The notes under the pieces: generated by a model
Seen by the model: the letters and a program-made list of their open reading frames with translations, nothing else
Database searches by the model: none
What the model was told of the DNA's origin: nothing
Translations under genes and position numbers: made by a program
In this document: one piece after another, positions 9,864 through 59,768 of the stretch
Numbering within the stretch: the first letter of the stretch is position 1
Layout of the letters: every line of letters begins with the position of its first letter
DNA from: Methanolobus sp.
GTDB taxonomy: Archaea > Halobacteriota > Methanosarcinia > Methanosarcinales > Methanosarcinaceae
Direction: 5' to 3'
Assembly (NCBI RefSeq): GCF_016278365.1
Contig: NZ_JADQBZ010000007.1
Span: 1 to 64,000 of the forward strand
DNA: 64,000 nt

Positions 9864-9915
9864 AGTGTAGTTCCTCCTATTCTTCATTACATGTTCAAGT
9901 TGCACAGGTAGTGTA

Positions 9916-10116: not shown

Positions 10117-10140
10117 TTCTTGCTTCCTTATTTCTCGATA

Positions 10141-12385: not shown

Positions 12386-12883
12386 TCTCCTATTTTTTGC
12401 ATAACTCCCTTTCATTTCCCTCCACAGAATCCTATTTTGTCTAAGCATTTTCATACTCCGGCTCTTTGACACTCATCAACTATATCCGTAATGTCTTCAG
12501 GTGCTCTGCTCTATCCATATGTAGAACTAGACCACCAAACTATGGAGACAGTCAGGAGCTGATAATCGACAAATATCAAACTATATTATGATATTAATTA
12601 TTTATTCGAAAAGGATATAGGAAAAGTCTGTATCCAATGTATCAGGCATATTGAAAAAAGAGAGTTAGAATGAACAGTTCAGAGGTTGGTGGCACGGGTA
12701 TCGGCTTGTGATCTTCTGTGTTCTCTGTAATATCTTGTGGTTGAGCTCAAAATAATGGTTTTTTACACAGCCGCTTTTTTCGTTAATATTATTTACTAAA
12801 TCAATGCCTTGAGGACGATACTAACCCTGTCAAAGACGGGGGAATACGTATCATAATTCCTCTTCAAAGGACATTATATGGTT
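12386..12883. other. Intergenic region between convergent genes
   Basis: About 500 bases between the Cache lipoprotein and the terminator of the beta-helix gene. No supported gene, RNA or repeat was found. Confidence 0.4.
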
Positions 12884-12911
12884 AAAAAATAGCTGAGGGC
12901 TTAGAGCCCTC
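12884..12911 (-). terminator. Intrinsic-type terminator of the beta-helix gene
   Basis: Read on the minus strand just after the stop codon of the surface-protein gene: a perfect 7-bp stem GAGGGCT/AGCCCTC (12895-12901 and 12905-12911) with a 3-base loop, followed within a few bases by a run of six T. A strong stem-loop plus T-run, probably ending this transcript. Confidence 0.65.
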
Positions 12912-12913
12912 CA

Positions 12914-16546: not shown

Positions 16547-16785
16547 CAAAACACCTTTTGTTATTGGAAACTTGATTCTGAAAGAACACATGCATAATAT
16601 AAAAAACAGTTGATATAATGCTCCTGGTTTTCTGAAACCTCTCTTTTCCGTTGCAACTGGCCGACTTTTAACTCTTAAGTATTTACTATACTCAGGAAGA
16701 ATAAGACATTTAGAATAATCATCTTTATATATGAATTTCCCTTTTAAAATAATTACTCAACAATGAAATCTCACGGGAATCTGAT

Positions 16786-24968: not shown

Positions 24969-25409
24969 TTACTCCTCCTCTTTCGTGTAAATAAAGAAAC
25001 TTTGAACAAGTTGTTTTTTTGATCGTTTCCCCCAATAGAACAGATTTTTCCCAAATACATCCCAATCGATGCTGCTTAACTTGGCTTGCTGGACTGCACG
25101 ACGTAATTGGACCAGATCATTTGGTGAACTTGAACGGACAATCTGAAAAATGCGCTTCTCACTGATTTTCGCATCACTGAGTTGCCTGCCTAAAAGCTTG
25201 GTATTTTCGCTATGCTTCTCAGCAAATGGCAAAAGGAAAGCTACACGTGCCAGCGGTCTTATTTCTCCTGGATTGTGATATCCTATAAGGTGGTAAAATG
25301 CTGGCAAGCATTCCAGGTCTTCTGGATTTGAAGCACGCCTTATTTCGGCACGTTGCCCATTATCCAGCGTTTCCCAGAAACGTTGATGAAGTTCAGTAAA
25401 AGGAATCAT
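24969..25409 (-). CDS. cse2: Cascade small subunit Cse2 (CasB, Cas11e)
   Basis: Small helical subunit present in two copies in Cascade, stabilising the crRNA and the non-target strand. 146 residues, mostly helix, with the LRRAVQQAKLSSIDWDVFGKNL region, close to the end and typical of CasB (ELR..V..A...I.WD.L...L). GGAG precedes the start. Located between cse1 and cas7e as expected. Confidence 0.92.
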   Translation of the reverse strand: MIPFTELHQRFWETLDNGQRAEIRRASNPEDLECLPAFYHLIGYHNPGEIRPLARVAFLLPFAEKHSENTKLLGRQLSDAKISEKRIFQIVRSSSPNDLVQLRRAVQQAKLSSIDWDVFGKNLFYWGKRSKKQLVQSFFIYTKEEE

Positions 25410-25453
25410 AGTGATACTCCAGATTTAAATATTTGCTGATTATACAGACTCAT

Positions 25454-26935: not shown

Positions 26936-29511
26936 TTTTTAACCTTCTGCAAACCTCTGTCCTGAGTATAAAGTAAGTAACCGTCATCATAATCAAAACG
27001 CCATCCTTCGCCTGCTTTCATCATAGGTAAGTAATGTAATCCATTCTGGCTTTTGGGTAATACAGACCTCCAAAAATTGCTATCTGGAACACCCAGACTG
27101 TTTTGGCTCAAAAGCTCGCGATCAAACTTATCATTGGGCCTGGGAACAGGAATGCCATCCAAAAAGTGCTTTACTCCGCTTTCTTCCGTCACCGGGATCA
27201 CACTTAGATTCATTTTCCCTTCTCTGGTGAGCGCATTTGCATTACCTTCAGAGTCCATAAAGTAAGTATCGGCCTGAGTCAGCCCCTTTGAGATCCACTT
27301 ACTTGCCCACTCCTCCGTTTCATATTCTTCATGTAGTTTAGTCAGTGATTCCGGTTCGTTCTCCCATTTGTCCTTAACATAAACACGTTCAATCCAATCA
27401 CGGTATGCTTCTGGAAACTTTATTGTACCGTTTTGCTCCAACAGGCATTGAGTACGCCAAAGAACTCTGGTATTTTTATAAATAAGATTGTGCAATCCAT
27501 ATATTTTCTTTGGATTTTCCATTAAATCTGCGTCATTGATATTTGGCATTACAACCGTGCATCGTGGCTTGTTATAAGATTCTGGACGTTGCTTAAAATG
27601 TCTGTGCAACCTCCCCATACGCTGAAATAGCAGATCAACCGGACATATAAAAGAAATCATCCAATCAAAATCGATATCCAATGATTGCTCTATTACTTGA
27701 GTTCCAACTAATATCCTACCTTGATTTAAACTATCTTTTCCGTAATTATCCTTAACTGCTTCTTCTTTGTTCATTCTGTCACAGTATCGATATCTTGAAT
27801 GAAAAATATCAACGGATACAGAAGTCATTTCACTGAGATGATGTGCATATATTTGTGCATCATCGACTAAATTGCAAACAACGCCGACTTTAGCCCCATT
27901 CTCCACCGCTTTAACTATCTGTTCAAGTTGTTCATTGGTTATTGAGCAATCATCACTCTTCCACAAATCGATTTCGACGTTTTTTTCCTGAATACAATTC
28001 TGATCCTCCAATGTGAATGTATGAACATCACTATCTTTTGCCTGCATGATCAATGGATATGCCTGTTCATCTCTCGCTTCACCAGTACCCCAAGCATTGC
28101 ACAAGGATTGTTTTTGGTATGCCGGAAGAGTTGCAGACAATAAAATAACACTACCACCAGCTTGTTTCTGCTGTTTGATAACTGCTTCCAAAATACCGTA
28201 CATGTAAGCATCATAAGCATGAATCTCATCAATGATCAAAACACCTTTTCCAATCCCAAAACTGCGAACAAAATAATGTTTTAAAGGTTTTATTGCTGAA
28301 AGCATGACCTGATCAACAGTAGTCACAGCAATTTGCCCTAAAAAAGCACGTTTTCTGCTGGAAGATAACCATTCACTACATTGTGATCCGGCTTCAAAAT
28401 CACCCTGAATGCTTGTGAATCGTTTGTGTTTTTCAACCATTCTTTTGAAGTGGTCATTTGAGTCCCGCTTCCCATGTGCCAGTATAATATTGTCCCTGCT
28501 TCCGAATATTTTACCAGCAACTTTTTCCAACCGATCCAGCATTGCGTTTGCAGTCGCTTGCGTAGGCAAAGCAAAAACAATACTATCCGCTAAGCCAGAT
28601 GCCAATAATTTGGAAGCGTAAGCCAAAGCAGCTTCTGTTTTTCCACTACCGGTATTCGCTTCAATTATGATCAAAGACTGTTCTACTGACAATCTATCGA
28701 TTAGTGTCTGTATGTTCTGTGGAGTGTAATCAGGATAAAGAGCTTCCATTCCACCGATGGTGTTTATGTGAGATAACAGGCCAAAGTCATTCAAAGAATT
28801 CAAAGCATTCTCTTTCCTGCTAACAAAATACTTTTCCAATGATGATTCATTCTGTTGAAATTCGAAATACTCTCTATTAGAACCCAGCCAATCACAAACA
28901 CTACAAAATCCTGCAAGCAATACTGGTGGATTTTTTGTAGGAATATCATCAAAAGTAATACCAGCAGGTTCCAAAAAGATGCGGCTCAATTCTTGTACCC
29001 ACTTTTGACGAGCAATGCAGTCTTGCATTTTTATAGACTCATCAACAAACGGAGGAAGATTGGGTTCAGCGTTTGTAGGTATTGATCCGTGATGCCCTGC
29101 AACTGAAGCAAACCAATTTTGCAACCATCTTTGTCTTTTGTAATCAACATCCCTAAAATACAAGTCTTCACTTTCAAGCACAAACCACTTGTACCCTTCA
29201 TCACCGTGAAAATAATCTTTACTTCTTATGCCCGCAGGCAAGTTGATTTTGTAGTTTTCTGTTGCCAAATCCAAATTTTTCATCTGGAATCTAATGTCAA
29301 ATTTGCCAAAATCGTGTAAGGCAATAAAAAACATTACCCATGCATAAGCTTGTTCTTCAGACAAGCCTGTTTCGTGGGAAAAACTCTGACGTATGCTAGG
29401 ACTGTTCTCCCACCATTGATCAGCCACTGCCGCAACATCCATAGAGTGGTATGGCAATAGATGCCAATATAATTCTTCGGCCTTGCCCCAGTATTTGTAT
29501 ATGTTTTCCAA
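26932..29511 (-). CDS. cas3: CRISPR-associated helicase-nuclease Cas3
   Basis: Degrades target DNA after Cascade binding. 859 residues. HD nuclease domain first: YHSMDVAAV (H22), ALHDFGK (H66-D67) and VAGHHGS. Then the superfamily 2 helicase: Walker A ANTGSGKTEAALAYA near residue 290, IIDEIHAYD (DEIH box), LLSATLP, and QVIEQSLDIDFDW with QRMGRLHRH as motifs V and VI. All catalytic residues are visible, so it should be active. First gene of the cas operon, with a promoter in the gap shared with csa3. Confidence 0.95.
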   Translation of the reverse strand: MENIYKYWGKAEELYWHLLPYHSMDVAAVADQWWENSPSIRQSFSHETGLSEEQAYAWVMFFIALHDFGKFDIRFQMKNLDLATENYKINLPAGIRSKDYFHGDEGYKWFVLESEDLYFRDVDYKRQRWLQNWFASVAGHHGSIPTNAEPNLPPFVDESIKMQDCIARQKWVQELSRIFLEPAGITFDDIPTKNPPVLLAGFCSVCDWLGSNREYFEFQQNESSLEKYFVSRKENALNSLNDFGLLSHINTIGGMEALYPDYTPQNIQTLIDRLSVEQSLIIIEANTGSGKTEAALAYASKLLASGLADSIVFALPTQATANAMLDRLEKVAGKIFGSRDNIILAHGKRDSNDHFKRMVEKHKRFTSIQGDFEAGSQCSEWLSSSRKRAFLGQIAVTTVDQVMLSAIKPLKHYFVRSFGIGKGVLIIDEIHAYDAYMYGILEAVIKQQKQAGGSVILLSATLPAYQKQSLCNAWGTGEARDEQAYPLIMQAKDSDVHTFTLEDQNCIQEKNVEIDLWKSDDCSITNEQLEQIVKAVENGAKVGVVCNLVDDAQIYAHHLSEMTSVSVDIFHSRYRYCDRMNKEEAVKDNYGKDSLNQGRILVGTQVIEQSLDIDFDWMISFICPVDLLFQRMGRLHRHFKQRPESYNKPRCTVVMPNINDADLMENPKKIYGLHNLIYKNTRVLWRTQCLLEQNGTIKFPEAYRDWIERVYVKDKWENEPESLTKLHEEYETEEWASKWISKGLTQADTYFMDSEGNANALTREGKMNLSVIPVTEESGVKHFLDGIPVPRPNDKFDRELLSQNSLGVPDSNFWRSVLPKSQNGLHYLPMMKAGEGWRFDYDDGYLLYTQDRGLQKVKK

Positions 29512-29543
29512 TTATTATCACTTGTAACAAATTATTGACAATA

Positions 29544-29588
29544 TACTGAGTAATTTACTATAAATCAACTTTACTAAATCACCCAGTA
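29544..29588. promoter_or_regulatory. Large imperfect palindrome over the cas3 promoter, candidate Csa3 operator
   Basis: Two 19-base arms, 29544-29562 and 29570-29588, identical at 15 of 19 positions when one is inverted, with a 7-base spacer. The minus-strand TATA-like GATTTATAGTA for cas3 (about 29556-29566) lies inside it. It is 33 bases from the cas3 start and about 150 from the csa3 start. A dimer of the neighbouring Csa3 could bind here and set cas3 expression; this is inference from position and symmetry. Confidence 0.55.
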
Positions 29589-29740
29589 ATTAATTAGATT
29601 CAATTTCTATCAAATGTTAATATTGTACACCTTTAATATATACTTTACTATTCTTTATCTGAACAGTAACACATACGAATATAGATATGTCTATTTACCC
29701 TGATTAAAACTATATAGAAACATTAACATACTATTCTCCG

Positions 29741-30340
29741 ATGTCCAATCTAACACTCATCACTACACTCTACACCCTTGAACCTGTACTTGTCTGTGTG
29801 ACACGCCTCTCGCCTTCAAGATTGATCATACTCACGGAGGATGGGGCCGTGGACAAGAAAGTGCAGGCGGAGCAGATGCTGGAAGCTACATTCGGGAAGT
29901 TCATCGAAGTGAAGAAACTCATCACTTCCCTGTACGACACCGTGAGGGTCGCACAGGACGTGGCCGGTGCGGTTGAAGAAGAGCACGGGCGGGGCAACCA
30001 GGTGATGATTAACGTCTCAGGAGGAAGGAAGCCCCAGGCATTCGGAGCCCTGTTTGGAGCCTACGCGCGCAGCGACATGGTAAAGCGGGTCGTTTACGTG
30101 ACCGAAGAGGACAACTTCATGATAGACTTTCCCATCCTGAGCTTCAACATATCGCCCACGAAAAAGGCAATACTCGAGCACATCAGGCAGGGTGAGAAAG
30201 CAGTTACTGTCATTGCCGGTAAGGTGGGTATCTCACGAGGGATGGCTTATAACCACATCCGGGAACTCAAGGACATGGGATACATATCCGATGATGAGGG
30301 TTTCAGTATAACCGATTCGGGAAGGCTGGCAGTCATCTGA
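29741..30340 (+). CDS. csa3: CARF-domain transcriptional regulator Csa3
   Basis: Regulator of CRISPR loci: N-terminal CARF (Rossmann-like) domain, about residues 1-130, with INVSGGRKPQAFGALFGAYA as the ligand loop, and a C-terminal winged helix, about 140-199 (AGKVGISRGMAYNHIRELKDMGYI). CARF domains sense cyclic oligoadenylates or other nucleotide signals. Csa3 is best known from type I-A systems of Sulfolobales, so its pairing with a type I-E operon is unusual. Divergent from cas3 with 229 bases between starts; a TATA box lies near 29634-29642. GC content is visibly higher than in the cas genes. Confidence 0.87.
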   Translation: MSNLTLITTLYTLEPVLVCVTRLSPSRLIILTEDGAVDKKVQAEQMLEATFGKFIEVKKLITSLYDTVRVAQDVAGAVEEEHGRGNQVMINVSGGRKPQAFGALFGAYARSDMVKRVVYVTEEDNFMIDFPILSFNISPTKKAILEHIRQGEKAVTVIAGKVGISRGMAYNHIRELKDMGYISDDEGFSITDSGRLAVI

Positions 30341-33644: not shown

Positions 33645-36155
33645 TCAGAGCACACCATCAAAGTAATGTCCCTGTGTGGTATACTCGCTCCTGGAAAGTG
33701 GCCTGCAGCTTTTCCCCTCCAGTCCACTCCTGTAAGCTCGTATTGTTTCCCTTATCTCTTTTTTGCTATTCATGGACAGGTAAAGTCTGAGCACGCCTAT
33801 GCCGCTGTCTCTCAGGCTCTCCAGATGTTCACGCATATCAAGCACCTTTGAATGATAGATCAAAGTGCGTCTTCCCGTGCGCTTTACAGGGAAATTCTCT
33901 CCTTTGTTATCTTCAAGTGATACGTTGCTGCCCTGTTCAAGGATCTTTCTGTCAACAAGGGGCTTTAAAAGATCGTTCTCTGTTATAAGAAGCAACTCCC
34001 TGCCATATGCAAGCAATTCTAACTGATGCTGCTCTCCTTCCTTTCCGGCCGCTGAGGAAATGTCCTTTATCTCCTCCAGGTTCAGTTCAGTGGAAAGTGT
34101 GACCCTTCGGGCCCCCGATTCAAAATAAGCAGAAGCTGTCTCATTATTGAATATATTCAGCTCCCTCTGGGCCACAAACGATATTCCCATCTGCACTGCA
34201 ACTCTCACGGTGCCGGGATTTGAGCATGCTACCGTGAATTTTGCCCGGTGCACATCTTCCATCAGCTTTTTCAGGGCCTCAAGCTCATGATCGAAAGCCA
34301 CCTGGGGAGTGACAAAGACTATCTCTGTTCCCTTTGCCCGTATCTCACCGATATGCAGGCTGTTCTGAGCCTCTGTCAGTTCACTGAACATCTCAATAGG
34401 TATATAAATGATATCAGCACCGGCATTCACAGCAGCAAACAGTGATTCGGTGCTGCTGACATCAGCGCTCAAAAGAAGTCGTTTTCTGGTTTTTGCAAAT
34501 GCGATATCTGCAGGCTTTATGTTTTGCTTTCCAGGTTCCCGGATCGCACATCCATCTGCAGCAGGCTGTTTCCTCTCTCTCTTATATGACATCAGAACCG
34601 CTTCCTGGAGAAGTGACACTGCCTGCCTCCTTGCATTAGTAAGGACACCAACAGGTATGAAGATGTTCTCATCTGATACAACTTCGACAGAGCCTGGATG
34701 ATAGGGTGTGTCACCAAGTTTTTCCATAGCCCGCGATATCTGTTCACCAGTAGTCGGAGAGCTTATCGCCTCCAGGACAACAAAATCATCTGTGAAGGAT
34801 ACAGAGTTTCTGTTTTCTTCCATCTCTATCCTGAGCTTTTCTCCAAGGCGGGCAAATACCCTGATAACAATCGGGATAGTCCGTAGCTTCTTTTTCCGGA
34901 TGTTGTCGATGAGCCTGTTGTCGGTTGAAAGAAATACTTCATCCTGTGGCCGGACAGCCTTGCCAGTCTTGGGGCTGATCTCAAGAATAACCTCTTCGCC
35001 TTTTGAGGCCTTTTCAACCCTTTCCCCTCCGGAAGTGATGAAGTCGACCCTGCAACCGAGCATTCTCATGCTGGTGAGTATTCCGATCCCGTCCTTGTCA
35101 TTGATGTCCTGCAGGAGTTTTATTTTCAGGCCTGCATGGTGTTTTGACCGGGATATCTCCTTTACCCTGCCAAGAGTAAGACCATAACTTGAACTGTATT
35201 TCTGGTGTGTGACATCCTTCTGTCCTAAAACAAAACCCTTTGTAAAGCCTCTGTAAAACAGTTTTGCAAGATCCGTCTCATAAGCCTCAATTTCCTGGGA
35301 ACTGAGATTACTGCCGGTCCTGCATATCCTCTCGACTGCCGTCTTATAGGCTTCAGAACTTGCGGTCACATATTCCGGTTTTTTCATCCGCCCTTCTATT
35401 TTCAGGCTTTTTATGCCGGTCCTGACTATACTGGCAAGTTCGGGAAGAGTGCAAAGTTCGGCACAGCTTATGGGATATTCACCTATTAATCCCCTGCCTG
35501 CCTCCTCTCCGTCGATCATCAGATGATACTGCCTGCGGCACGGCTGCGTGCAGGCCCCCCTGTTTGCACTTCGGTCGCTGAGGAAACTGCTGAAGAGGCA
35601 TCTGCCTGAGTAGGAATAGCACAGAGCCCCGTGGACGAAGAGTTCAATATCAATGTTGCTCCTGTCAACGATATCTTTGACCTGTTCCACAGTAAGCTCT
35701 CTTGAGAGTATGACCCTGGATGCACCTGCCTCTTCAGCAAAGGCCACTCCCTCCAGGTTATGGATGGTCATCTGGGTGCTTGCATGTAATGGAAGATCGG
35801 GATAGGTGCTGCTTAGCATCTTCATCAGTCCCAGGTCCTCAATTATGATGGCATCGATCCCATAGGAATATGCCTTATCGACAACATCAAGCGCATTCTG
35901 TAGTTCTTTCTGCTTGACAGGGATGTTCAGTGCCAGGAAAACCTTAACGCCTCTGGAATGCGCAAGATCTATTGCTTCTTCCAGTTCGTCCAACCTGAAG
36001 TTCTTTGCCCCCTTTCTTGCATTAAAATCCTCTACCCCAAGGTATACAGCATCAGCTGCTCCCTTTATTGCACCAAGCAGGGCTTCAGTATCGCCTGCAG
36101 GAGCCAGTATTTCCGGTGGCTGGCAGTATTTGTAAATATTATCACTAGCGGTCAT
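33645..36155 (-). CDS. U32-family peptidase/RNA-modification-like protein with duplicated domain
   Basis: 836 residues. The first half is a classical U32 (YhbU/RlhA-like) barrel: PPEILAPAGDTEALLGAI at the start, DAVYLGVEDFNARKGAKNF, LELF VHGAL-CYSYSGRCLFSS and RGACTQPCRRQY with the conserved cysteines, and then the DUF3656-like middle. The second half (from about residue 545, LLLSADVSSTESLFAAVNAGADIIYIP) repeats the barrel in weaker form. In bacteria, relatives (RlhA, TrhP) hydroxylate 23S rRNA or tRNA using prephenate-derived or iron-sulfur chemistry; older annotation is collagenase-like peptidase. ATG 36155 is chosen; GTG 36161 is an alternative. Confidence 0.85.
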   Translation of the reverse strand: MTASDNIYKYCQPPEILAPAGDTEALLGAIKGAADAVYLGVEDFNARKGAKNFRLDELEEAIDLAHSRGVKVFLALNIPVKQKELQNALDVVDKAYSYGIDAIIIEDLGLMKMLSSTYPDLPLHASTQMTIHNLEGVAFAEEAGASRVILSRELTVEQVKDIVDRSNIDIELFVHGALCYSYSGRCLFSSFLSDRSANRGACTQPCRRQYHLMIDGEEAGRGLIGEYPISCAELCTLPELASIVRTGIKSLKIEGRMKKPEYVTASSEAYKTAVERICRTGSNLSSQEIEAYETDLAKLFYRGFTKGFVLGQKDVTHQKYSSSYGLTLGRVKEISRSKHHAGLKIKLLQDINDKDGIGILTSMRMLGCRVDFITSGGERVEKASKGEEVILEISPKTGKAVRPQDEVFLSTDNRLIDNIRKKKLRTIPIVIRVFARLGEKLRIEMEENRNSVSFTDDFVVLEAISSPTTGEQISRAMEKLGDTPYHPGSVEVVSDENIFIPVGVLTNARRQAVSLLQEAVLMSYKRERKQPAADGCAIREPGKQNIKPADIAFAKTRKRLLLSADVSSTESLFAAVNAGADIIYIPIEMFSELTEAQNSLHIGEIRAKGTEIVFVTPQVAFDHELEALKKLMEDVHRAKFTVACSNPGTVRVAVQMGISFVAQRELNIFNNETASAYFESGARRVTLSTELNLEEIKDISSAAGKEGEQHQLELLAYGRELLLITENDLLKPLVDRKILEQGSNVSLEDNKGENFPVKRTGRRTLIYHSKVLDMREHLESLRDSGIGVLRLYLSMNSKKEIRETIRAYRSGLEGKSCRPLSRSEYTTQGHYFDGVL

Positions 36156-36375
36156 TTTCACGAGGTATGATGTTTATCTATAGTGTTATTTATGATAGTG
36201 CCTAACAAGTGTATTATTTAAAACGGTTTCTCAGAACATCCTTTAGTGTGAGGTGTTCAGCTCTTGCAGAAACTCATATTTTTCGGACGACACGAATAAA
36301 TATGATCATTCTTCTCCTTAAATTGAAGAAGGCGAAGAATGAGAATTAAATGTTCCGGAAAGAGAGGGGTTATGT

Positions 36376-36564
36376 ATGGCTATAAGTAAAGTTTATTTTC
36401 AGATCATATGTTTTATTGTGTTTTCACTCTCATACCTGGTTATAATCAATCTGTATTTTATGTCAAGAGGGAATGCTGCCTGGGTTTTTGCTCCGGGCAC
36501 CTTGCTGGTCGGTCTGGTGGGATATTGGATAGGTGATTATCTCTATACGCGCTATTTTAAATAA
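36376..36564 (+). CDS. Small two-helix membrane protein
   Basis: 62 residues with two hydrophobic segments (IICFIVFSLSYLVIINLYF and PGTLLVGLVGYWIGDYLY) joined by a short loop RGNAAWVFA. GAGGGG precedes the ATG. No family recognised; it lies 87 bases before the truncated corrinoid gene with its own TATA-like region between them. Confidence 0.6.
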   Translation: MAISKVYFQIICFIVFSLSYLVIINLYFMSRGNAAWVFAPGTLLVGLVGYWIGDYLYTRYFK

Positions 36565-36651
36565 TATTCTAAATATAAAACCAGGGCACCAAAAGAATTA
36601 TATACGTATGAATATTATCAGATTTAATATATAATAAAAGGTTGTTATAAT

Positions 36652-36969
36652 ATGCAAACTTCACAATTGACCGGCCAGGATATTATCAGTATGGCAAAAC
36701 ATGCCGTAGTAAGCCTTGACATGGAAGAAGCTGAACATGCTGCAAGGGAGGCGCTTGAAGCAGGCCTTGATCCTGTGACATTCATCGAAAAAGGATTTGT
36801 GGCCGGCATGAAGGAGATCGGAGATATGTTCGAGGAAGACAAAATCACACTTATGCAGATATTTGCGGCTTCAAAGATCATGGACGCAGGTCTTGATATC
36901 CTAAAACCTGAAATGGATAACCCGGAGCATAAGTTCTGTTTCTTTGGGAATATCGCCATGAGTGTTTAA
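36652..36969 (+). pseudogene. Truncated methyltransferase corrinoid protein
   Basis: 105 codons matching only the N-terminal four-helix cap of the corrinoid proteins of methanogenic methyltransferases (MtmC/MtbC/MttC type): SMAKHAVVSLDMEEAEHAAREAL, GFVAGMKEIGDMFEEDKI and AASKIMDAGLDILKPEM. The B12-binding Rossmann half with the DxHxxG cobalt-ligating motif is missing; after KPEM the frame reads only a short unrelated tail and stops. No methyltransferase or pylB-type partner is adjacent. It is most simply a remnant; a separate cap protein cannot be excluded. Confidence 0.7.
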
Positions 36970-43250: not shown

Positions 43251-44852
43251 TTATTGTTCCCTGCGCTTGATCACGGCAAAGACACAGATAAGGATGAATA
43301 TCATCAGAGACCCTTCAAAACCAGGTTGCACCCTGGTATCATCAGAATTGGTTACTGTGTTGTCTGTGGAAGAAGAACTGCCCGATGTGCTGCTGGGAGT
43401 GTCACTCTGGGAGTTATCAGAAAGAGAAGCGGAAGTCTGCTCTTCCGGGTCTACAACCGACAGTACGGGCATGTTGGATATCCTTTCACCTTTAAAGCCT
43501 TCCATATCAATGAACGTAGCAGTTGTTGCAGGCATCTTTACCTCTCCTGTCTCCTTCGTTCTGATCACATATGAGTATGTGGCTGATTTGCCTCCTTTCA
43601 TAACTTCCTTGAACTCCAGGTTCCCGCTTACAAATGATACGCTGGATGGCATACTTTCTGCTGTTGTTACACTGGCATCCTTGTTACCCTGATTATGCAC
43701 AGTTATAGTCACAGTAGCTTCTTTGCCAGGGCTCACGGAAGAAGGACTTATGGTTTTAGTAAGAACTATATTGGGTCCATTAACTTTGACCTTGGGTGCT
43801 TCTGACTTGAATGTGTGCACCTTGCCGTCGGGCCCTGTGAATGTAGCTGTCGTTGCAGGAATTGTTATCTCGCCGGTCTTTGTGGGTTTCAGTGTATATT
43901 TAAAAAGGTCTGCCTTTGTCTCACCTTGGCTAAAACTGACTGTTGTTTCCTGATTGGTATTATCCTGCAATTCAAAATACTCGCTGATCGAATCGGTGAC
44001 TGTTGCGGAACTGACACTATAGATTCCTTTATTGTATACACTCACTGAAACGTAAACAGCCTTATCCATGTATATTTCCTTGGCAATAGTCTTTGTAATT
44101 ATAAGTTCGACAACAGGCTCTATGGTCAGGGTCTTTATTTTGTCATGGGAGTGTATCTGGTTGTTAATGTCCTTAGATTTAGTTGTTACCTTAAAATCGA
44201 TCTTTGTCTGGTCCCAGTACTCAGAGGCCTTGAATTTAACAACTATCGGCTCAAGTACTTCATCTTCTTCCACATCATTAAAACTATATTTAATTTTTCC
44301 GGAAGTTTGTTCCATTCCACATGAATCTATTTCTACGTCCATATTGTAGGCTTTGGCATCACCTTCGTTCTTGATATTTATTGTTGCTGTAATAATAGAA
44401 GAACCAGTATACCTTGGATCATAAGTGTCTTTATCAGTGCTTATATCGATTTTCATCTTTGGATAAGCTCTCTTATATACTTTAACTGCAGTTTTTGGAT
44501 CTTTCATATTGCCTGTCCATGAGTCAATATTAAGGGTCACGGAATCAACAACTACTTTGATGTCATTGCCACTATCTGTATCACGGTAAGTCAGAGTTTC
44601 TCCAACACGCAAAGGGGAAATTGCTTTTACCTGGTTGTTCCTGGAAATGCTGATGCTGACAAAACCTTCTGCATTAAAGTCCTCAGCTTTGATAACATAG
44701 CTATCAATTGTTAATGTACCTCCCCAAGCAAGGGTGCCAGTCTTATCTGCACCATCCTTCCATTCAATATCATCCACAGTATAGGCTAATGCAGGCAGGC
44801 AGAGAAGATACATCGATAAAAGTAAACAAATAAGGGATTTTTTTAGCATCAT
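43251..44852 (-). CDS. PGF-CTERM surface protein (COG1361-like), paralogue 2
   Basis: 533 residues: signal peptide (LLLSMYLLCLPALA), a first domain like that of the neighbour (GTLTIDSYVIKAEDF), three immunoglobulin-like repeats with KEIYMDKAVYVSVSVYNKG, a Ser/Thr-rich linker and a PGF-CTERM tail (PGF, then a hydrophobic helix and KRREQ). The tail is recognised by archaeosortase A, which removes it and attaches a lipid. So this copy should be anchored, unlike its neighbour. A GAGGTT site precedes the ATG. Confidence 0.85.
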   Translation of the reverse strand: MMLKKSLICLLLSMYLLCLPALAYTVDDIEWKDGADKTGTLAWGGTLTIDSYVIKAEDFNAEGFVSISISRNNQVKAISPLRVGETLTYRDTDSGNDIKVVVDSVTLNIDSWTGNMKDPKTAVKVYKRAYPKMKIDISTDKDTYDPRYTGSSIITATINIKNEGDAKAYNMDVEIDSCGMEQTSGKIKYSFNDVEEDEVLEPIVVKFKASEYWDQTKIDFKVTTKSKDINNQIHSHDKIKTLTIEPVVELIITKTIAKEIYMDKAVYVSVSVYNKGIYSVSSATVTDSISEYFELQDNTNQETTVSFSQGETKADLFKYTLKPTKTGEITIPATTATFTGPDGKVHTFKSEAPKVKVNGPNIVLTKTISPSSVSPGKEATVTITVHNQGNKDASVTTAESMPSSVSFVSGNLEFKEVMKGGKSATYSYVIRTKETGEVKMPATTATFIDMEGFKGERISNMPVLSVVDPEEQTSASLSDNSQSDTPSSTSGSSSSTDNTVTNSDDTRVQPGFEGSLMIFILICVFAVIKRREQ

Positions 44853-44905
44853 TTAACCTCATGTGTATTATTAATAATATTGAAATAGATATTAATTTTA
44901 TGGAG

Positions 44906-45406
44906 TCAGTTTTTTGGTATAAGTGTTTTATAACCTTTTATCTGAGAAGGCCTGTCAATTGCTGTTGTTCTGGAGGTGGAACTTGGAAGGTCGGTCATGG
45001 TAGGCTGCTGTATGAGTCCTGCTGTGTTCGCATCTGCGGTTCGCTGGCTTTTGTACCCCGCTTCGATAGTTTTATTTATAGCAACCTCTGAATATTCAGG
45101 AAAAATATTTGTCCTCTCAGATTGCTTTTCTGAGCTCCTTTTTGACATATCGGACTTAAGGTCTCTTTCCTTGGCCCTGGTCCCATATTCTTTGCCGTCC
45201 CTGTAGTTTTGCATGACGAGCTTTCCAAGACCGGATTCTCTTGCCAGATCCTCAAGCATTGAGTATTGCTCGCTCACCCAGCCAAGTTCGGAATGTTTGT
45301 GATACCCTACTTCAAAACCAAGCTTGTACGAACTTTTAACAAGCTCATCGATCTCAGATCTGGTGAGTTGCGTTTGCTCTTCTTTCTTTTTGAAAAACCT
45401 GACCAT
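44906..45406 (-). CDS. Hypothetical basic/charged protein, partner of the KaiC-like ATPase
   Basis: 166 residues, soluble, starting MVRFFKKKEEQTQLT. The N-terminal half is helical (LTRSEIDELVKSSYKLGFEVGYHKHSELGW, interrupted by Y/H). The C-terminal half is rich in S, T, K and disordered-looking. No family recognised. It starts 12 bases after the ATPase stop, so the two are cotranscribed. Possibly a regulator or substrate of that ATPase. Confidence 0.65.
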   Translation of the reverse strand: MVRFFKKKEEQTQLTRSEIDELVKSSYKLGFEVGYHKHSELGWVSEQYSMLEDLARESGLGKLVMQNYRDGKEYGTRAKERDLKSDMSKRSSEKQSERTNIFPEYSEVAINKTIEAGYKSQRTADANTAGLIQQPTMTDLPSSTSRTTAIDRPSQIKGYKTLIPKN

Positions 45407-52250: not shown

Positions 52251-52292
52251 AACTCGTGTAACAGCAAATAATAATTAAAAGCGGTGCTTAAA

Positions 52293-53177
52293 ATGGACAT
52301 CAGGAAGTTCGTGCAAACCCAGGAAGCTGCCCTGAAGAAGTACCGCAGGACCTATAAACTGCTTGATTTCCTCACCATCCTTACATTATTTTACACACTA
52401 ATGGTGGTCCTGAGTATTGACCAGGCATTGCCGATCATCCGCACCTTTGAGGTACGTGCGGGAACAGCTTACAACGTGGCAGGCCTCAGCATTGCTTTTG
52501 AAACAGTGGTGCTTCTGACAATATCCGTACTCGTATCTCTGGTGCTGACTTTCATTCTGCACAGAAAAGATAAGAAGATTAGCACTATTGAACTGGTTGA
52601 AGAAAAATATCCCAGCCTACGGGAAAGGCTTCGCACTGCCTATGACAACATAAGCCTTGACACTATTATAGCCAATGACCTGAAGCAGACAGTGTCTTCA
52701 GCTGTTGAAAGCGTAAGGTCATCTATGTTCCTCCGGAAAAAGAGGGTGAACTTTGGTTTAATTGTGTTAATAGCTTCTGTTCTGCTGCTGACTTTTGTGA
52801 CTTTGAACGATATACATGCAGACATGACCCCGGAAGACTGGAAAGGCTTGGTAGACAATCTCCCCTTCGTTCCAGACAGCTCAAATGGAGATGATCTCGT
52901 CGTCATCGATGACGACCCTCAGGAAAGTGCGGGTACAGAGAACCTTACAGGACCTTCTGCAGTCATCGTGGTGGAGGGGACGGAAGTGGACCTTAGCTTA
53001 CCTCCGGGATCCGGAGTTGGCTTCAATCCGGGTAATGATACTGAACAGGATACGGACTTTGTGCCATCCTCAAGTTACGAGATCGATGCTATATCCTCGG
53101 ATACGTACTACGAAAGTTTCCCGGCGGGCTATGAAAGTGTGATCAAGTCTTACTTTGAGAAGATGGCAGAAGAATAA
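52293..53177 (+). CDS. Membrane protein leading the MoxR operon
   Basis: About 294 residues: helix-rich cytoplasmic start (VQTQEAALKKYRRTYKLLDFL), three membrane segments (26-46, 65-88 and about 148-168) and a large C-terminal domain with many D, S and P. Similar in placement to the uncharacterised membrane proteins (DUF7502-like) found ahead of MoxR/DUF58 in methanogens. GGTG precedes the ATG. No function assigned; it is likely part of the membrane complex served by MoxR. Confidence 0.68.
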   Translation: MDIRKFVQTQEAALKKYRRTYKLLDFLTILTLFYTLMVVLSIDQALPIIRTFEVRAGTAYNVAGLSIAFETVVLLTISVLVSLVLTFILHRKDKKISTIELVEEKYPSLRERLRTAYDNISLDTIIANDLKQTVSSAVESVRSSMFLRKKRVNFGLIVLIASVLLLTFVTLNDIHADMTPEDWKGLVDNLPFVPDSSNGDDLVVIDDDPQESAGTENLTGPSAVIVVEGTEVDLSLPPGSGVGFNPGNDTEQDTDFVPSSSYEIDAISSDTYYESFPAGYESVIKSYFEKMAEE

Positions 53178-53250
53178 CAGGGTTGACTGCCGGATTACTA
53201 AATTTATATTTACCAATACATCCAAAGGACGAGAACAAAGGAGAAAACTA

Positions 53251-54222
53251 ATGGCTAGCGACATTAACTCAAGGGATCTGACACAAACATACAGGGTTGC
53301 CGGAGATATGTTTGGCACCCTTTTCAAGGAAATCGGAAAGGTGGTTGTCGGTCAGAACGATACCGTAGAGCAGATAATTATTGCGATACTGTGCAACGGG
53401 CACGCTCTGGTCGAGAGTAACCCGGGACTGGGCAAGACCCTCACCATATCTACTATCTCAAAGTCAATGGACCTCAATTTCAGCAGGATACAGTGTACCC
53501 CTGACCTCATGCCGGCTGATATCACAGGAACTCATTTCATCGAAGAAACCGGTGGCTCAAAACATTTCAAATTCGAGCCCGGACCCCTGTTTGCCAATAT
53601 AGTGCTTGCTGATGAGATAAACCGTGCATCGCCAAAAACACAGTCCGCACTCCTTGAAGCTATGCAGGAAAAACAGATAACTGTCGGTAATGACACTTTC
53701 CTGCTGGAGCAGCCGTTCTTCATTCTTGCCACACAGAACCCTATAGAAATGGAAGGCACATTCCCGCTTCCGGAGGCTCAGCTTGACAGGTTCCTCCTCA
53801 AGATACTGGTGGATTATCCAAGCTATGAGGATGAGATAGAGATAGTGAACCGCTATACACGCTCCATAATGCCTACTGTTGGCAAGGTTGTTAACAAGAA
53901 CACGCTCCTTGACCTGCAGAGGCTCACAAGGGACGTGCCTATCGCTGACGACATCAAGAGCCGTGTGATCAAGATAGTTATGACCACACGTATCAGGAGC
54001 GAGTTCATAGAGTACGGTGCTTCCCCGAGGGCTTCCATTGGCCTTATCCTTGCAGCAAAGGCACGGGCACTGATCAAGGGGAGGAACTACGTCAGTAATG
54101 AGGACATTGAGGCCATGGCCTATCCGGTCCTGAGGCACAGGATAATACTGAGCTTTGAATCCGAAAGGAAAGGGATCACAACAGACCAGGTTATCAGGAA
54201 TATCCTCGAAAAGACCAAATAA
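53251..54222 (+). CDS. MoxR-family AAA+ ATPase
   Basis: Chaperone-like ATPase of the MoxR subgroup, 323 residues. Walker A is ESNPGLGKTLT, Walker B LADEINRASPKTQSALLEAM, sensor 1 FILATQNPIEMEGTFPLPEAQLDRF. AGGAG lies before the ATG 53251. MoxR proteins work with von Willebrand A-domain proteins to insert metals or assemble complexes. It is second in a five-gene run and 40 bases before the DUF58 gene. Confidence 0.93.
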   Translation: MASDINSRDLTQTYRVAGDMFGTLFKEIGKVVVGQNDTVEQIIIAILCNGHALVESNPGLGKTLTISTISKSMDLNFSRIQCTPDLMPADITGTHFIEETGGSKHFKFEPGPLFANIVLADEINRASPKTQSALLEAMQEKQITVGNDTFLLEQPFFILATQNPIEMEGTFPLPEAQLDRFLLKILVDYPSYEDEIEIVNRYTRSIMPTVGKVVNKNTLLDLQRLTRDVPIADDIKSRVIKIVMTTRIRSEFIEYGASPRASIGLILAAKARALIKGRNYVSNEDIEAMAYPVLRHRIILSFESERKGITTDQVIRNILEKTK

Positions 54223-54262: not shown

Positions 54263-55144
54263 ATGAGCGACAAGAAACATACTATCGATGTTGACTTTTT
54301 CAGGCAGCTTGACCGCTTCACTTTCATGGTGAAGAAAAGGATGTCGAGCACATACGCTGGAAACAGGCGTTCCCTTCACAGCGGCAAAGGACTTGATACG
54401 GTCGGCTACAGGGAGTACAACCGGGGAGACGAACTCCGATCAGTTGACTGGAAAGCCTATGCACGCTCTGAGAAGCTCTACGTGCGCCAGTTCGAAGAGG
54501 AAAAGTCCCTCACTACCCATATCTTACTTGATGCCAGCAAAAGTATGGACTACGGGAGCGGTGATATATCCAAGTTCGAATATGCAACGATGCTGGCAGC
54601 CGGTTTTGCATACCTTGTTACAAGGGACAATGACAAGTTTGCTATCTCGACATTCTCTCAGGATGTAGATATCACAAAACCGCGCCGGGGAAAGAGATAC
54701 CTGTTGCAGATGATCGATAGGCTGGAGGAAGTGCATCTTGAAGGCAGGACTGCCATCGACCAGGTCACCTCCCAGTATGTCAAAGCTATCAGTTCAAGGT
54801 CCCTGATAATTATAATTTCGGATCTCCTTGATGATCCCGCATCTATCGAGTCAGCCGTTTATCGCTTTGCTGACCATGACCTCATACTTATACAGGTCCT
54901 TGACAGAGCAGAAAGTATGCTTACCCTGCACGGTCACAGTAAGCTGGTAGATGTTGAAACGGGAGCAAAGCTGGATACTTACGTCAGCGAGGACTTCAAG
55001 AATGAATACCAGAAAAAGCTGACAGAGCATATTTCCAGGATTACTGCTGTGTGTGACAGGGTCGGCGCTGAGTTCTATACCGTTACCACCGACGTACCTG
55101 TTTTTGAAGCCTTCCTCAACACCATCAGCAGGAGGATGTGGTAA
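54263..55144 (+). CDS. DUF58 (von Willebrand A-like) protein
   Basis: 293 residues. GKGLDTVGYREYNRGDELRSVDWKAYAR is the DUF58 signature, followed by a VWA fold with the MIDAS LLDASKSMDYG. DUF58 proteins are the usual partners of MoxR, carrying a metal-ion-dependent adhesion site. Starts at ATG 54263; the reading frame is open further up, inside moxR, but this start is best. Its stop overlaps the next start (TAATG). Confidence 0.9.
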   Translation: MSDKKHTIDVDFFRQLDRFTFMVKKRMSSTYAGNRRSLHSGKGLDTVGYREYNRGDELRSVDWKAYARSEKLYVRQFEEEKSLTTHILLDASKSMDYGSGDISKFEYATMLAAGFAYLVTRDNDKFAISTFSQDVDITKPRRGKRYLLQMIDRLEEVHLEGRTAIDQVTSQYVKAISSRSLIIIISDLLDDPASIESAVYRFADHDLILIQVLDRAESMLTLHGHSKLVDVETGAKLDTYVSEDFKNEYQKKLTEHISRITAVCDRVGAEFYTVTTDVPVFEAFLNTISRRMW

Positions 55145-57015
55145 TGCCTTTCGAATCACCTCTTGCACTTGCAGCTCTTGCAAGCGTGATACCGCTTATA
55201 CTGTTATACCTGCTACGCCCGAAACCGCTTCAGGTGCTTGTGCCTTCCCTGATGTTCCTTATGAATATCCGGGAGGAGAAAAAGCGGTTCTACACTTCCA
55301 TAACAAAACTGATAAAAGATCCGCTATTCCTGATACAGTTGCTTGTGCTGATATTACTGGCACTCGCTGCAGCAGCACCTTTCATCGAGACCCAGCAGCC
55401 TCTCAGCGGAGAGCATACTGTTATAATCATCGACTCATCCGCAAGCATGCAGACCGACGGTCGGTTCAGTGACGCGATCTCAAAGGCCGGTGACTATGTA
55501 AGTAACACGAACACTATAATCCTTGCAGAGAACGTACCCGTGACCGTGCTTTCATCTGCGGGATCCTCGGCTGCCTATGAGACTCTGGATTCCCTGCAGC
55601 CAAAGGCAGTGGTCGCAGATATCTCATCGGCCGTTTCCGCGGGGATGAGGACGCTCTCGCAGGAAGGCGGAAGGATAGTCGTCATCTCCGATTTCTCCCA
55701 CTGGGACGGGGACGATCCCGTGAATGCCAAGAACCTTGCCGAATCCTACGGATTACAGGTCGAATATGTCCTTGTGGGCAGCAGTACCGGCAATGTTGGC
55801 ATTATCCAGGGGGAGGTCTCGGCAGTGGAAGGAAGTTACACTTACACCGGTGTCTTGAAAAACTACAACAACGGCAGACAGAGTGTGAACCTGAATATCG
55901 TCAATGAAGGCGGAAATGCACAGCAGGTAAGTCTTAGCGTACCTGCCCGCTCCACCCAGCAATTCAAGGTGACAAATCTTAAGACAGGCATAACCGAAGT
56001 AAGGATTGCAGCCGCTGACAGTCTCATGGTCGACAACGTGGCATATATATCAGTCCCCCCCTCATCCTCCAAGCAAATGCTTGTAGTGTCAGATACCGAT
56101 AAACTCCCATCCCACACCGCTCTCTCGCTCATGCCTAATGTCCAGACCAACCTGCTTGAAGGAGTGCCTTCGGACCTTTCAAAATACAGCGTTGTTGTCA
56201 TTGCCAATAAGCAAAGGACTCTCGCATCCAATGAGGTATCCACTCTTAACAGCTTCATCAGGGGTGGCGGGGAAGTCGTTTTCATAGCCAGTGAAGCCCT
56301 GTCCGCGAACAAAGCAGGAACGGATCTGCAGAGCCTGCTGCCTGTAAGCACAGGCAATGTTGCGAGTGCTGAAAGGGGTGTGACGCTCAGGGTGTTGCAG
56401 GAAACAAGACTCAGCGAGGATATCAAGTTCAATGAGGTTGCAGTCTACGAGTATCTTAATGCTACCGCACGAAGAGATGCAACAACCCTTGTGGCTACCA
56501 CTACAGGTACTCCTATGCTTGTCTACAGTACCTTGGGAGAGGGCACAGTGGTCTATCTGGGACTGAACGATGCTCTTGGCGAGGATGCCTGGAACAATTT
56601 CCATAACCTTCCTGAGTATCCGGTGTTCTTGTTCCAGCTGGCAGGCTGGCTTGGAGGCACCGGGAGCATCTCGGATTATAACCTGAAGACAGGCGCTGTA
56701 TCCGCACTTGCCAGGGAACAGGAGATACAGACGCCAAACGGTGTGCAGACCACAAATCGTGTGCATTATGATGAAGCGGGTGTCTATACAGCTGCAGGAA
56801 AGAGGGTCGCTGTCAACCTGTATAATGACAGGGAATCCGACACAACCCTTACCGGGCAGGATGTCATAGACCGCTCAAAGGCAAAGGATTCTCCCGGTAT
56901 CGTACGAGCCAGCAGCTACACCGCAAAGAACTACCTGGATACATATATGATAATCATAGTTTTCCTACTGGTCATGCTTGAATTAATGATAATCAGAAAA
57001 AGGGGTGAGCTGTAA
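55144..57015 (+). CDS. BatA-like membrane protein with VWA domain
   Basis: 625 residues. N-terminal membrane helices (SPLALAALASVIPLILLYLL and PLFLIQLLVLILLALAAAAPF) flank a BatA motif (LLRPKPLQVLVPSLMFL), then a periplasmic-side VWA domain with MIDAS IIDSSASM, a CARDB-like beta domain, a class-I glutamine amidotransferase-like region, and a C-terminal helix (TYMIIIVFLLVMLELMII). GGAGG precedes the ATG. Starts and stops overlap by one base with both neighbours (TAATG). Confidence 0.85.
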   Translation: MPFESPLALAALASVIPLILLYLLRPKPLQVLVPSLMFLMNIREEKKRFYTSITKLIKDPLFLIQLLVLILLALAAAAPFIETQQPLSGEHTVIIIDSSASMQTDGRFSDAISKAGDYVSNTNTIILAENVPVTVLSSAGSSAAYETLDSLQPKAVVADISSAVSAGMRTLSQEGGRIVVISDFSHWDGDDPVNAKNLAESYGLQVEYVLVGSSTGNVGIIQGEVSAVEGSYTYTGVLKNYNNGRQSVNLNIVNEGGNAQQVSLSVPARSTQQFKVTNLKTGITEVRIAAADSLMVDNVAYISVPPSSSKQMLVVSDTDKLPSHTALSLMPNVQTNLLEGVPSDLSKYSVVVIANKQRTLASNEVSTLNSFIRGGGEVVFIASEALSANKAGTDLQSLLPVSTGNVASAERGVTLRVLQETRLSEDIKFNEVAVYEYLNATARRDATTLVATTTGTPMLVYSTLGEGTVVYLGLNDALGEDAWNNFHNLPEYPVFLFQLAGWLGGTGSISDYNLKTGAVSALAREQEIQTPNGVQTTNRVHYDEAGVYTAAGKRVAVNLYNDRESDTTLTGQDVIDRSKAKDSPGIVRASSYTAKNYLDTYMIIIVFLLVMLELMIIRKRGEL

Positions 57016-59465
57016 TGGTAAGCTTTGAGCATCCGGAAATGTTCTGGCTTATTCTGCCTGTCCTGATAGGCGGAATATACCTTCTAAGAAAAGCCACGAA
57101 GAAAGGCCTCATCATTTCCAGGATCATAGTTGTTGCACTGCTTATCATCGCACTGGCGTCTCCCTATACACTCAGCCCCAGGGTGACTGTGGACGACAAT
57201 CCCAACATTGTCCTGATCTCCGATGAAACGGAAAGCATGAACATCTTTGACAAGCAGGCTGCAACCAATCTGTATGAATCACTGGCAGCGAAAACACCCA
57301 CTACACTTGTCAGGCTCACCGGGGATAAGACTGCCCTGGGAGATGCAATTATGCAGTATTCCACAGGAGATAACCAGTTAGTAATGATAACGGACGGGAA
57401 CAGCAACAGTGGAGCTGACCTTGAAGAAGCCCTGAAATTTGCACAGGATATCGGGACCACGGTATACTATGTTCAGCCCGACCTTACGTCCAACGATATC
57501 ACCGCTCAAATCACTGGCGACAAGACGGTTATCGTGAACAACGTGAACCAGTTCGATATGATCATCTCCCAGGCTGGCACCGGGGAGATCAGCTACCGCT
57601 ATGAGTTGTACATCAACGATCAGCTTGCAAGGAGCGCAAATGTCGTGCAGGAAGGCAGGCAGAAGAACATAACGCTTCATGACATCAAGTTCTCAAAGCT
57701 TGGAAAGCACACTATGAAACTGGTAATCATACCTTCCGGCGGTGACAGCGACAATATCAATAATGATTTCTATAAATCGGTATATGCTATCCCTAAACCC
57801 AAAATAACTGCCATCGGTCTTGAAACCGGCTCCCCCCTTGCCTATTCACTGCAAAACCTCTATGCAGTCTCAACGGCAACGGACCTGTCCAGTATAGATG
57901 GCAAGAAGGCGATAGTGATTGACAATACACACGCCAATTCCTTCTCGCAGAGCGATGTGACGAAGCTCAAAGCTTTCCTTAATGACGGACATGGGATCGT
58001 AGTAGTCGGCGGGGACCACTCATACAACTATGGTAACTACCTTGACTCTCCGATCGAGGAGATACTTCCGGTAGTATCCAGACCCACTGACTGGAGCGGA
58101 GGAAGGAATGTAGTTCTGGTGCTTGATGTATCGGGGAGTTCAGTCGATTACAATATGACTACAGACATAGTTTCAAATGCAGTCAAAATAATAAAAAATG
58201 AGAATCTAAGGGACTCACATGTAGGAATTATTACTTTTGGGAGTAAGGGGTTTGACTTCTCTAACGGACTATTATATCTTGGCACTTCTTCAAATATAGA
58301 ACTTTTAGAACAGCAATTAGAAGAGATGAAATTTGGTGGTGGAGAAACCAATTTGAATGAAGGATTAGAAGTTGCTGAAACTTGGTTAGAGGATGAAACA
58401 GGTGAATTAGAAATTATAATAATTTCCGATGGAGCAATTGACTCTTACAAAGAAACAATAGCAATATCTCAAAGGCTTCATGCGAAAGGTGTTAATTTTT
58501 ACTTCCTTCATATTAATTCAGGCGATAAAGGCCAAGATGGTTTACTAGACGAAAATGGTAACTATGTGAGTAAAAGAATAATGGAAGAAGTAAACGGATC
58601 TCATGTTTGGCTTGAGAAGGGAGAAAGAGCAAATATAATATTTAGCGGTATACAGCAGCCTTCCGATCAAAATGATACTGCATTTGGTTCATTCCCTCTC
58701 ATAGAACTCAACACGCAGCATTTCATAACACGTAATGTTGAAGTGGAGGGTGAGATTACAGGGTACAATGATGTCACACCCAAGGCTGGAGCCGACAGGC
58801 TGGTTATCACAGCCACAGGTAAACCTGTACTCACTACCTGGAGATATGGCCTGGGGAGGGTAGCAGCCATTACAACTGATAATGGGGAGCGGGGCGGGAA
58901 CAGGTGGGGAACCGCACTGTATTCCGGCAACAATTCAAAAATAGTCTCCTCAACTGTTAACTGGGCCATAGGCAACCCCCGCGAGGAAACGGGTGCAGTT
59001 GTGGAAGCACCGGATACATGGTACGGAACACCTGCCGATGTTGTGCTTACAATGTATGATACCGGCATCCCTATCCTGAAGCTCAACGGTGACAATGTTG
59101 ATCTTTCCCTTACAGGGAACAATGTATATGAAGCGAGCATCAGTCCCGACACCATCGGAGTGCATGACCTTTCGGGTTATCCGCTGGCCGTCAACTATGC
59201 GCTGGAATATCGCGATGTAGGTCTCAATGAGAACCTGCCTTCCCTCATCAGGGCCTATGGGGGCAACACATATACAGAAGATGAGGCGCGTGCCAGCCTC
59301 CTTACGGAAGCCCGGCAAAAATCCCAGAAACTGGTGCGCGATATCGTCAGCCATAAGATGTATTTCCTGCTTGCCGCTCTTATAATCTTCCTTGGTGAAG
59401 TGATAGTCAGGAGAATCAGGGAAATAAGGGAAATGAAGAAAATGCAGAGCGAGATGCAGGGCTAA
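57015..59465 (+). CDS. BatA/BatB-like membrane protein with VWA domain (mosaic composition)
   Basis: 816 residues. Two N-terminal membrane helices (MFWLILPVLIGGIYLL, IVVALLIIALASPY), a first VWA-like domain (VLISDETESMNIF), a glutamine-amidotransferase-like region with VVVGGDHSYNYGNYL, a full VWA domain (VLVLDVSGSSVDYN, MIDAS) from about residue 366, and a C-terminal helix with a basic tail. The VWA domain is encoded by a much more AT-rich stretch, about 58145-58670, with different codons (AGA, TTA, ATA) than its flanks. Last gene of the operon, with a T-run at 59483. Confidence 0.83.
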   Translation: MVSFEHPEMFWLILPVLIGGIYLLRKATKKGLIISRIIVVALLIIALASPYTLSPRVTVDDNPNIVLISDETESMNIFDKQAATNLYESLAAKTPTTLVRLTGDKTALGDAIMQYSTGDNQLVMITDGNSNSGADLEEALKFAQDIGTTVYYVQPDLTSNDITAQITGDKTVIVNNVNQFDMIISQAGTGEISYRYELYINDQLARSANVVQEGRQKNITLHDIKFSKLGKHTMKLVIIPSGGDSDNINNDFYKSVYAIPKPKITAIGLETGSPLAYSLQNLYAVSTATDLSSIDGKKAIVIDNTHANSFSQSDVTKLKAFLNDGHGIVVVGGDHSYNYGNYLDSPIEEILPVVSRPTDWSGGRNVVLVLDVSGSSVDYNMTTDIVSNAVKIIKNENLRDSHVGIITFGSKGFDFSNGLLYLGTSSNIELLEQQLEEMKFGGGETNLNEGLEVAETWLEDETGELEIIIISDGAIDSYKETIAISQRLHAKGVNFYFLHINSGDKGQDGLLDENGNYVSKRIMEEVNGSHVWLEKGERANIIFSGIQQPSDQNDTAFGSFPLIELNTQHFITRNVEVEGEITGYNDVTPKAGADRLVITATGKPVLTTWRYGLGRVAAITTDNGERGGNRWGTALYSGNNSKIVSSTVNWAIGNPREETGAVVEAPDTWYGTPADVVLTMYDTGIPILKLNGDNVDLSLTGNNVYEASISPDTIGVHDLSGYPLAVNYALEYRDVGLNENLPSLIRAYGGNTYTEDEARASLLTEARQKSQKLVRDIVSHKMYFLLAALIIFLGEVIVRRIREIREMKKMQSEMQG

Positions 59466-59768
59466 ACCAGCCTGCATCATTCTTTTTTAGATATTCACCC
59501 AGCCTTGCTAGAATTTGTTGCCAAGAGACTTGTTATCAAGTATGATAACAAATGATTAAGCCATGGCTGCCATTGAAAATACTATCTTCCAATCGTATCA
59601 ACCTGTTGCAGACCAGTTTTTTGAGTAAACATCCTGTTTTAGTAAGCTCTATTGAGGCTTTTTATTACTAATGAGCATAAATTCACAATTGTTATATGCG
59701 AAATTAATATATACTGGTTCAAACTACTACACTCTTACGTTAAAGGCATACACACAGAGGAACAGTAA
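59466..59768. other. Intergenic region before metY
   Basis: Opens with a T-run (59483-59488), probably the terminator of the VWA operon. A perfect inverted repeat TTGTTATC / GATAACAA lies at 59530-59551 with a 6-base loop. A TATA box, TTAATATATAC, at 59704-59714 serves metY. No gene seen. Confidence 0.5.

Follow-up and report, generated by a model that had tools for sequence, protein, structure and literature searches.

Probable replacement of a VWA domain by recombination in a MoxR/BatA-type operon of Methanolobus

Related systems and the architecture of the operon

Exposed proteins with a single variable domain and a conserved remainder have been described in both archaea and bacteria. VARTIG of Thermococcales is an extracellular archaeal protein whose body is conserved and in which interspecies exchange has rendered one domain hypervariable; its role is unknown, self/nonself recognition or conflict has been proposed, and its authors saw no close counterpart in other archaea (PMC8416519). 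The myxobacterial kin-recognition receptor TraA, located in the bacterial outer membrane, has a tested role in self-recognition (PMC6372800). VWA proteins linked to MoxR ATPases are known from other contexts. In NorQ/NorD it is the client, rather than the ATPase, that the MIDAS of the VWA domain touches, and MIDAS mutants lose client activity while still binding the ATPase (PMC9976466). Bat operons encode membrane-anchored BatA-type VWA/MIDAS proteins that are proposed to face the periplasm and whose function is elusive (PMC3557215). For archaea a MoxR-VWA secretion module has been predicted, in which an ATPase of COG0714 is combined with vWA and Ig-like proteins that are secreted (PMC5898192).

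The operon studied here lies in a 64-kb window, the whole stretch of DNA that was analysed, from the genome of Methanolobus sp. (G000), and all its features are on the + strand. It starts with a gene for a DUF7502 membrane protein (52284–53177), followed by genes for a MoxR-type AAA+ ATPase (53155–54222; PF07726, E 1.6e-60), a DUF58 protein (54263–55144, with the start codon picked by eye; PF01882, E 3.7e-44) and a BatA-type partner (55138–57015; PF07584, DUF7408, DUF7406), in which the BatA N-terminal double-transmembrane domain is recognized by PF07584 with 50.3 bits and by TIGR02226 with 23.9 bits (cut-off 23.05). The last gene (57015–59465), an open frame of 816 codons, encodes a membrane protein of 816 amino acids in which one VWA domain has been swapped and the scaffold around it is constant. 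Judged by these parts, the operon is a member of the Bat-type (MoxR-DUF58-BatA-VWA) group. Nearly all of the 60 relatives searched carry an orthologue of the last gene, and two genera (g7 and g11) have a second, more distant copy of about 870–890 amino acids with its own VWA (L104, L105, L115). The spacer 3' of the gene (59460–59750) is about 290 bases long in G000 and about 1830 in the relative G026 (L121, 12228–14059).

The AlphaFold model of the last gene product (mean pLDDT 84, pTM 0.57) shows, in order, two helices, a VWA-like domain at residues 64–155, a beta sandwich at 162–259, a split GATase1-like domain, a beta domain and a C-terminal helix. The N-terminal transmembrane helices (residues 7–26 and 30–47; 57033–57155) are separated by the basic loop RKATKKG, and the C-terminal one (residues about 781–800; 59355–59414) precedes a basic tail. 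Basic residues after helix 1 and after the last helix suggest that the large part between them, some 730 residues, lies outside the cell. The protein contains two VWAs, of which the first (57204–57479; DxTxS and D127 kept and near-invariant) is fixed and unswapped here, and the second is variable. Between the first VWA-like domain and the GATase1-like domain lies what we call module M, an Ig/CARDB-like unit (codons 177–251, 57543–57767, unexchanged in G000) within the beta sandwich, to which the CARDB domain of PF1109 is the nearest fold (TM 0.84 to the target). The remaining best domain-level matches of the fold search were ordinary VWA domains; a sequence search of solved structures returned none.

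The GATase1-like domain, whose Pfam match is weak (PF07090 at residues 565–625, 27.3 bits against a cut-off of 27), has its second half at residues 560–652 (58692–58970); residues 263–353 (57801–58073) are assigned from the model as its N-terminal half. In the model the two halves are interrupted by the second VWA (363–534) and a disordered linker (545–556), and this insertion within another domain makes the VWA a natural unit of exchange. It is a clear VWA by sequence (PF00092, E 1.8e-12, Pfam span 365–505) with an intact MIDAS: the motif DVSGS (D371, S373, S375; 58125–58139), in invariant alignment columns, the threonine T445 (58347–58349; serine in seven relatives) and the aspartate D472 (58428–58430).

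A replaced domain and its origin

The sequence-only reading had pointed to an AT-rich patch over the VWA of the last gene, and this was borne out: GC content at 58145–58670 is 34.2% versus 49.4% in the remainder of the gene, and windows of 300 bases give 33–36% in the patch and 45–52% in its flanks. GC at third codon positions is 24% in codons 378–552 versus 56% elsewhere in the gene, and when the GC contrast is computed likewise for 96 family genes, the value of the patch falls short of their mean by 3.3 SD. The unusual codon usage also claimed is real for TTA, which occurs 7 times in the 175 codons of the patch versus once in the roughly 609 others, and for ATA (12 versus 16); for AGA (2 versus 4) the evidence is weak. 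ATC and CTG are absent from the patch and occur 30 and 21 times in the rest. The reading frame is kept throughout, as had been noted. Since 3% of all 526-base stretches across the window are equally AT-rich, composition alone is a hint and not decisive. Further stretches of the window with at most 36% GC are found at 6667–17046, 25231–29851, 36098–36745 and 43931–44966.

It is the comparison with relatives that makes the patch decisively real. Amino acid identity of G000 to its two closest relatives, G026 and G021, is 95–97% in the flanks (97% for G026, and 98% in the C-terminal part) and 46% in the VWA, while the VWAs of G026 and G021 are 97% identical to each other. Over 51.3–61.7 kb the DNA of G000 and G026 is about 95% identical and, non-coding stretches aside, drops to 41–63% in coding DNA only at 58100–58700; the next lowest coding windows, near 56.0–56.2 kb, have 83–86%. 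Our baseline comprised about 20 genes at 37–62 kb together with the BatA gene in 30 genomes. In windows of 60 residues no other real gene among these 20 falls below 65% identity to G026, versus 32% for the VWA gene. The operon partners are 99% (MoxR), 97% (DUF58) and 97% (BatA-type) identical to those of G026 and were thus unchanged when the VWA was swapped. In the DUF7502 protein, amino acids about 126–185 are 33% identical to G021 and yet 97% identical to G026 (L122); this stretch is perhaps another exchanged outer part.

Codon alignment with G026 and G021 and a segment fit delimit the replaced segment as the whole VWA, codons about 361–554 (58095–58676), with the best fit at codons 368–554 (log-likelihood ratio 131; 56% different inside, 3% outside). 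The patch had been described as starting just after the MIDAS serine and ending with the domain. The former is correct for the AT-rich part (about 34% GC, 58141–58680), but the replaced segment begins near 58095–58116, before the MIDAS, and is slightly longer at the other end as well, with its 3' limit near 58676, about 20 codons past the folded domain in the disordered linker. Such a segment could in principle come from a chimeric assembly or contamination, as the genome is a draft of 19 contigs with 1.1% contamination. However, the patch lies inside a contig of 250 kb, both its joints are in frame and fall on homologous sites, and single-contig genomes such as G002 show this pattern too, so that an artefact is barely credible.

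The patch has saturated synonymous sites, whereas flank dS is 0.28, and this excludes in-place mutation as the principal cause. Rapid positive selection on the resident domain, with no recombination involved, would fit the high dN of the patch (0.45) but neither its saturated synonymous sites nor the fall in third-position GC, and the VWA of G000 is sister to those of three other species. Synonymous divergence and the trees already contradict this explanation, which we consider hardly conceivable. In the flank tree G000 groups with G026, G021, G023 and G006 (support 100/100), and in the VWA tree with G002, G022 and G007 (99/99), three species that sit elsewhere in the flank tree. In AU tests, whose P-values here and below are somewhat generous as the groups to be tested were chosen once the first trees had been seen, VWA data reject the position that G000 takes in the flank tree (ΔlnL 33, P = 0.018), flank data reject its VWA grouping (ΔlnL 370, P = 3e-88), and VWA data reject a pairing of G002 with G004 (P = 2e-11). 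Patch and flanks thus give different trees and not the same one, and a strong drop in GC is not found in all relatives, two outcomes that agree with the proposal of the sequence-only reading that the domain was replaced. With incongruent trees supported by AU tests, dS saturated in the patch only and sharp shared limits, recombination with a divergent relative almost certainly replaced the VWA domain.

We call the VWA type of G000, G002, G022 and G007 Y-type and the ordinary VWA of the nearest species, such as G026, H-type. In these terms, a divergent and AT-rich relative of the Y-type allele of Methanolobus supplied a complete VWA with its MIDAS through homologous recombination, and this VWA displaced the H-type that the nearest species still keep. 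The scattered positions of G002, G022 and G007 in the flank tree show that the Y-type allele has spread over separate Methanolobus lineages. The VWA of G000 is only about 50% identical to theirs, and a donor search through 112 genomes of the family and GTDB r220 gave 52% at best (Methanolobus vulcani B1d, which is G022). The Y-type is therefore old and the immediate donor unsampled. Among viral contigs, none of 177 pattern matches could be confirmed as related. A VWA of Methanosarcinales archaeon METP1 is 38% identical to the patch over 93 residues (L131).

A donor within the same genome was also considered. Whole-domain swaps with fixed limits recall programmed switching, in which the locus receives copies of silent VWA cassettes that lie at other places in the genome. 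Yet G000 holds no second VWA copy of either type (in a draft of 19 contigs, where a gap could hide one), its sole other match to the H-type VWA having 30% identity at E 0.01, and we think such switching very unlikely.

Recurrence of the exchange in two families

The sequence-only reading had described a single swap, and it turned out to be one of many. Conserved flanks with a divergent VWA occur in at least nine close pairs among 96 genes of the family: G000/G026, G064/G066, G036/G066, the G005 group/G025, G002/G004, G060/G061, G130/G132, G092/G091 and G077/G078. Identities of flanks and VWA are 96 and 50% in G064/G066, 90 and 44% in G002/G004, 89 and 46% in G060/G061, 88 and 29% in G005/G025, 87 and 38% in G130/G132, and 85 and 30% in G077/G078. 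The event in G005/G025 is the least certain by tree: a clade that unites G025 with the G005 group is not rejected by the VWA data (P = 0.149), so fast divergence could account for this event. In a second family (f5) the same pattern appears five times among 27 genes, for example in G150/G054 (89 and 34%), G146/G149 (89 and 53%) and G145/G139 (88 and 36%). Exchange between the two families was not seen, the VWAs of each grouping apart with support of 100. As one genome per species was sampled, the exchange observed is one between species.

In most pairs the divergent segment starts at residue 365–379 and ends at 541–575; earlier starts are found in G005/G025 (296) and G077/G078 (276). Incoming VWAs are usually AT-rich, and all but one (G102) of the eleven most negative differences in GC between VWA and flanks belong to genomes with a divergent or misplaced VWA. 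These data show that one VWA slot has been refilled repeatedly across the family.

Nor is the VWA the only part affected, which likewise had escaped the first reading. Module M of G021 has been exchanged (54% identity to G026 versus 96% in the flanks; dS 1.88 versus 0.23; L003, L122), and to judge by its divergence that of G134 has probably been as well (dS 0.74 versus 0.38). The protein thus holds two exchangeable units.

The main rival to a functional reading is neutral tolerance: the VWA would be the most tolerant domain, accepting that of any divergent relative, partial swaps would misfold, and no change of ligand would have been selected. Such mosaicism would explain why segment limits match domain limits, and unswapped VWAs, too, evolve somewhat faster than flanks (a median of 4–14 points of extra divergence when all pairs are counted, those with a swap among them). 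However, in the unswapped close pairs G078/G079 and G028/G075 both dS and dN of the VWA are near the flank values, so constraint on the VWA is not weak. In these Methanolobus pairs with a swapped VWA, the last ~490 residues of the BatA-type partner, which is the part that was sampled, bear no domain swap (segment log-likelihood ratios of 3–16 versus up to 139). The distribution of variability within the domain also argues against neutrality. D371, S373, S375 and D472 are unchanged in every gene checked, so that all retain the metal site, with the variability concentrated around it: in 19 allele representatives three of the four MIDAS-adjacent loops have a very low identity of 0.20–0.25, and the four loops on this side, assigned from general VWA topology and not from model coordinates, range over 10–40, 9–25, 6–14 and 7–16 residues in length, while other loops differ by at most 2. 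A kept metal site with variable loops would look like the pattern expected of changing ligand specificity. We consider neutral mosaicism doubtful on balance.

A possible role and likeness to known systems

The explanation that we favour, with a probability of roughly 0.62, is that the last gene encodes the external ligand-binding VWA of a MoxR/BatA-type complex, swapped recurrently under diversifying selection. By analogy with NorQD and from the operon itself, the protein probably forms an assembly or chaperone-like complex together with the MoxR ATPase and the proteins of DUF58 and BatA type; in this complex the VWA would be the putative ligand-binding head, binding through its metal site as NorD does. 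As the loops around the kept site are exchanged as a block, each swap would most likely change an external or surface partner and leave the rest of the machine untouched; the ligand would be encoded outside the operon. Diversifying selection from a changing partner, for example viruses, rivals or a surface protein that is the client, may keep divergent alleles in circulation. That the external ligand has changed under such selection seems to us rather likely, and that the swap altered the client, as first suggested, is plausible.

S-layer proteins were considered as co-varying clients. Long S-layer-domain proteins of G000 and G026, compared over matching frames, are 85–93% identical and contain no block that has been replaced; a shorter frame has 82% identity with a stretch of 48% near its end. 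As the proteins compared in this way lack a matching block swap, a co-varying S-layer client is not supported.

A more speculative and rather unlikely extension is that this is a recombination-driven hypervariable recognition system of methane-cycling archaea, a MoxR-linked complex whose external MIDAS head is traded between species for self/nonself recognition or for escape from viruses or rivals. The clients of the widespread MoxR/BatA/VWA operons are mostly unknown, and the repeated exchange of exactly one domain by recombination indicates where contact with the outside is made. H, Y and other VWA types on near-identical scaffolds make up a natural set of variants for finding the ligand. 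In the open-access literature, which leaves many journals uncovered, we found no previous account of swapped VWAs in MoxR/BatA-type operons. The swapping would also stand as a rare archaeal example of domain-bounded hypervariability beyond Thermococcales.

By evolutionary behaviour the nearest systems are VARTIG and TraA, and by parts the MoxR/VWA chaperone pairs and Bat operons. Two other kinds of variable system fit less well: saturated synonymous change and alleles common to other species speak against the target of a diversity-generating retroelement, and the silent copies of the variable segment that mark cassette or phase-variation systems were not found in the G000 draft. The archaeal secretion module is built around arCOG01314, and the accessible part of its description (PMC5898192) does not mention domain exchange. 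Bat operons (PMC3557215) share the MoxR and membrane-anchored BatA-type proteins, but here the last gene has its VWA inserted in a GATase1-like domain. As in NorQ/NorD, a MoxR ATPase gene stands beside that of a VWA protein with an intact MIDAS; the VWA of NorD, however, is cytoplasmic and its client fixed (PMC9976466), whereas the one described here is predicted to lie outside the membrane and is exchanged. TraA, though unlike our protein in fold and system, has an exposed variable domain with a tree unlike that of the full protein and a conserved remainder (PMC6372800). VARTIG likewise joins a conserved body to one exchanged domain, but our protein is not VARTIG. There it is the C-terminal Ig domain of a large secreted protein that varies, small downstream genes share the variable domain and feed recombination, and gene content shifts (PMC8416519), while here an internal MIDAS VWA, with an internal Ig/CARDB-like module, is exchanged, the C-terminal part is constant, and the operon is stable with no second copy in the draft.
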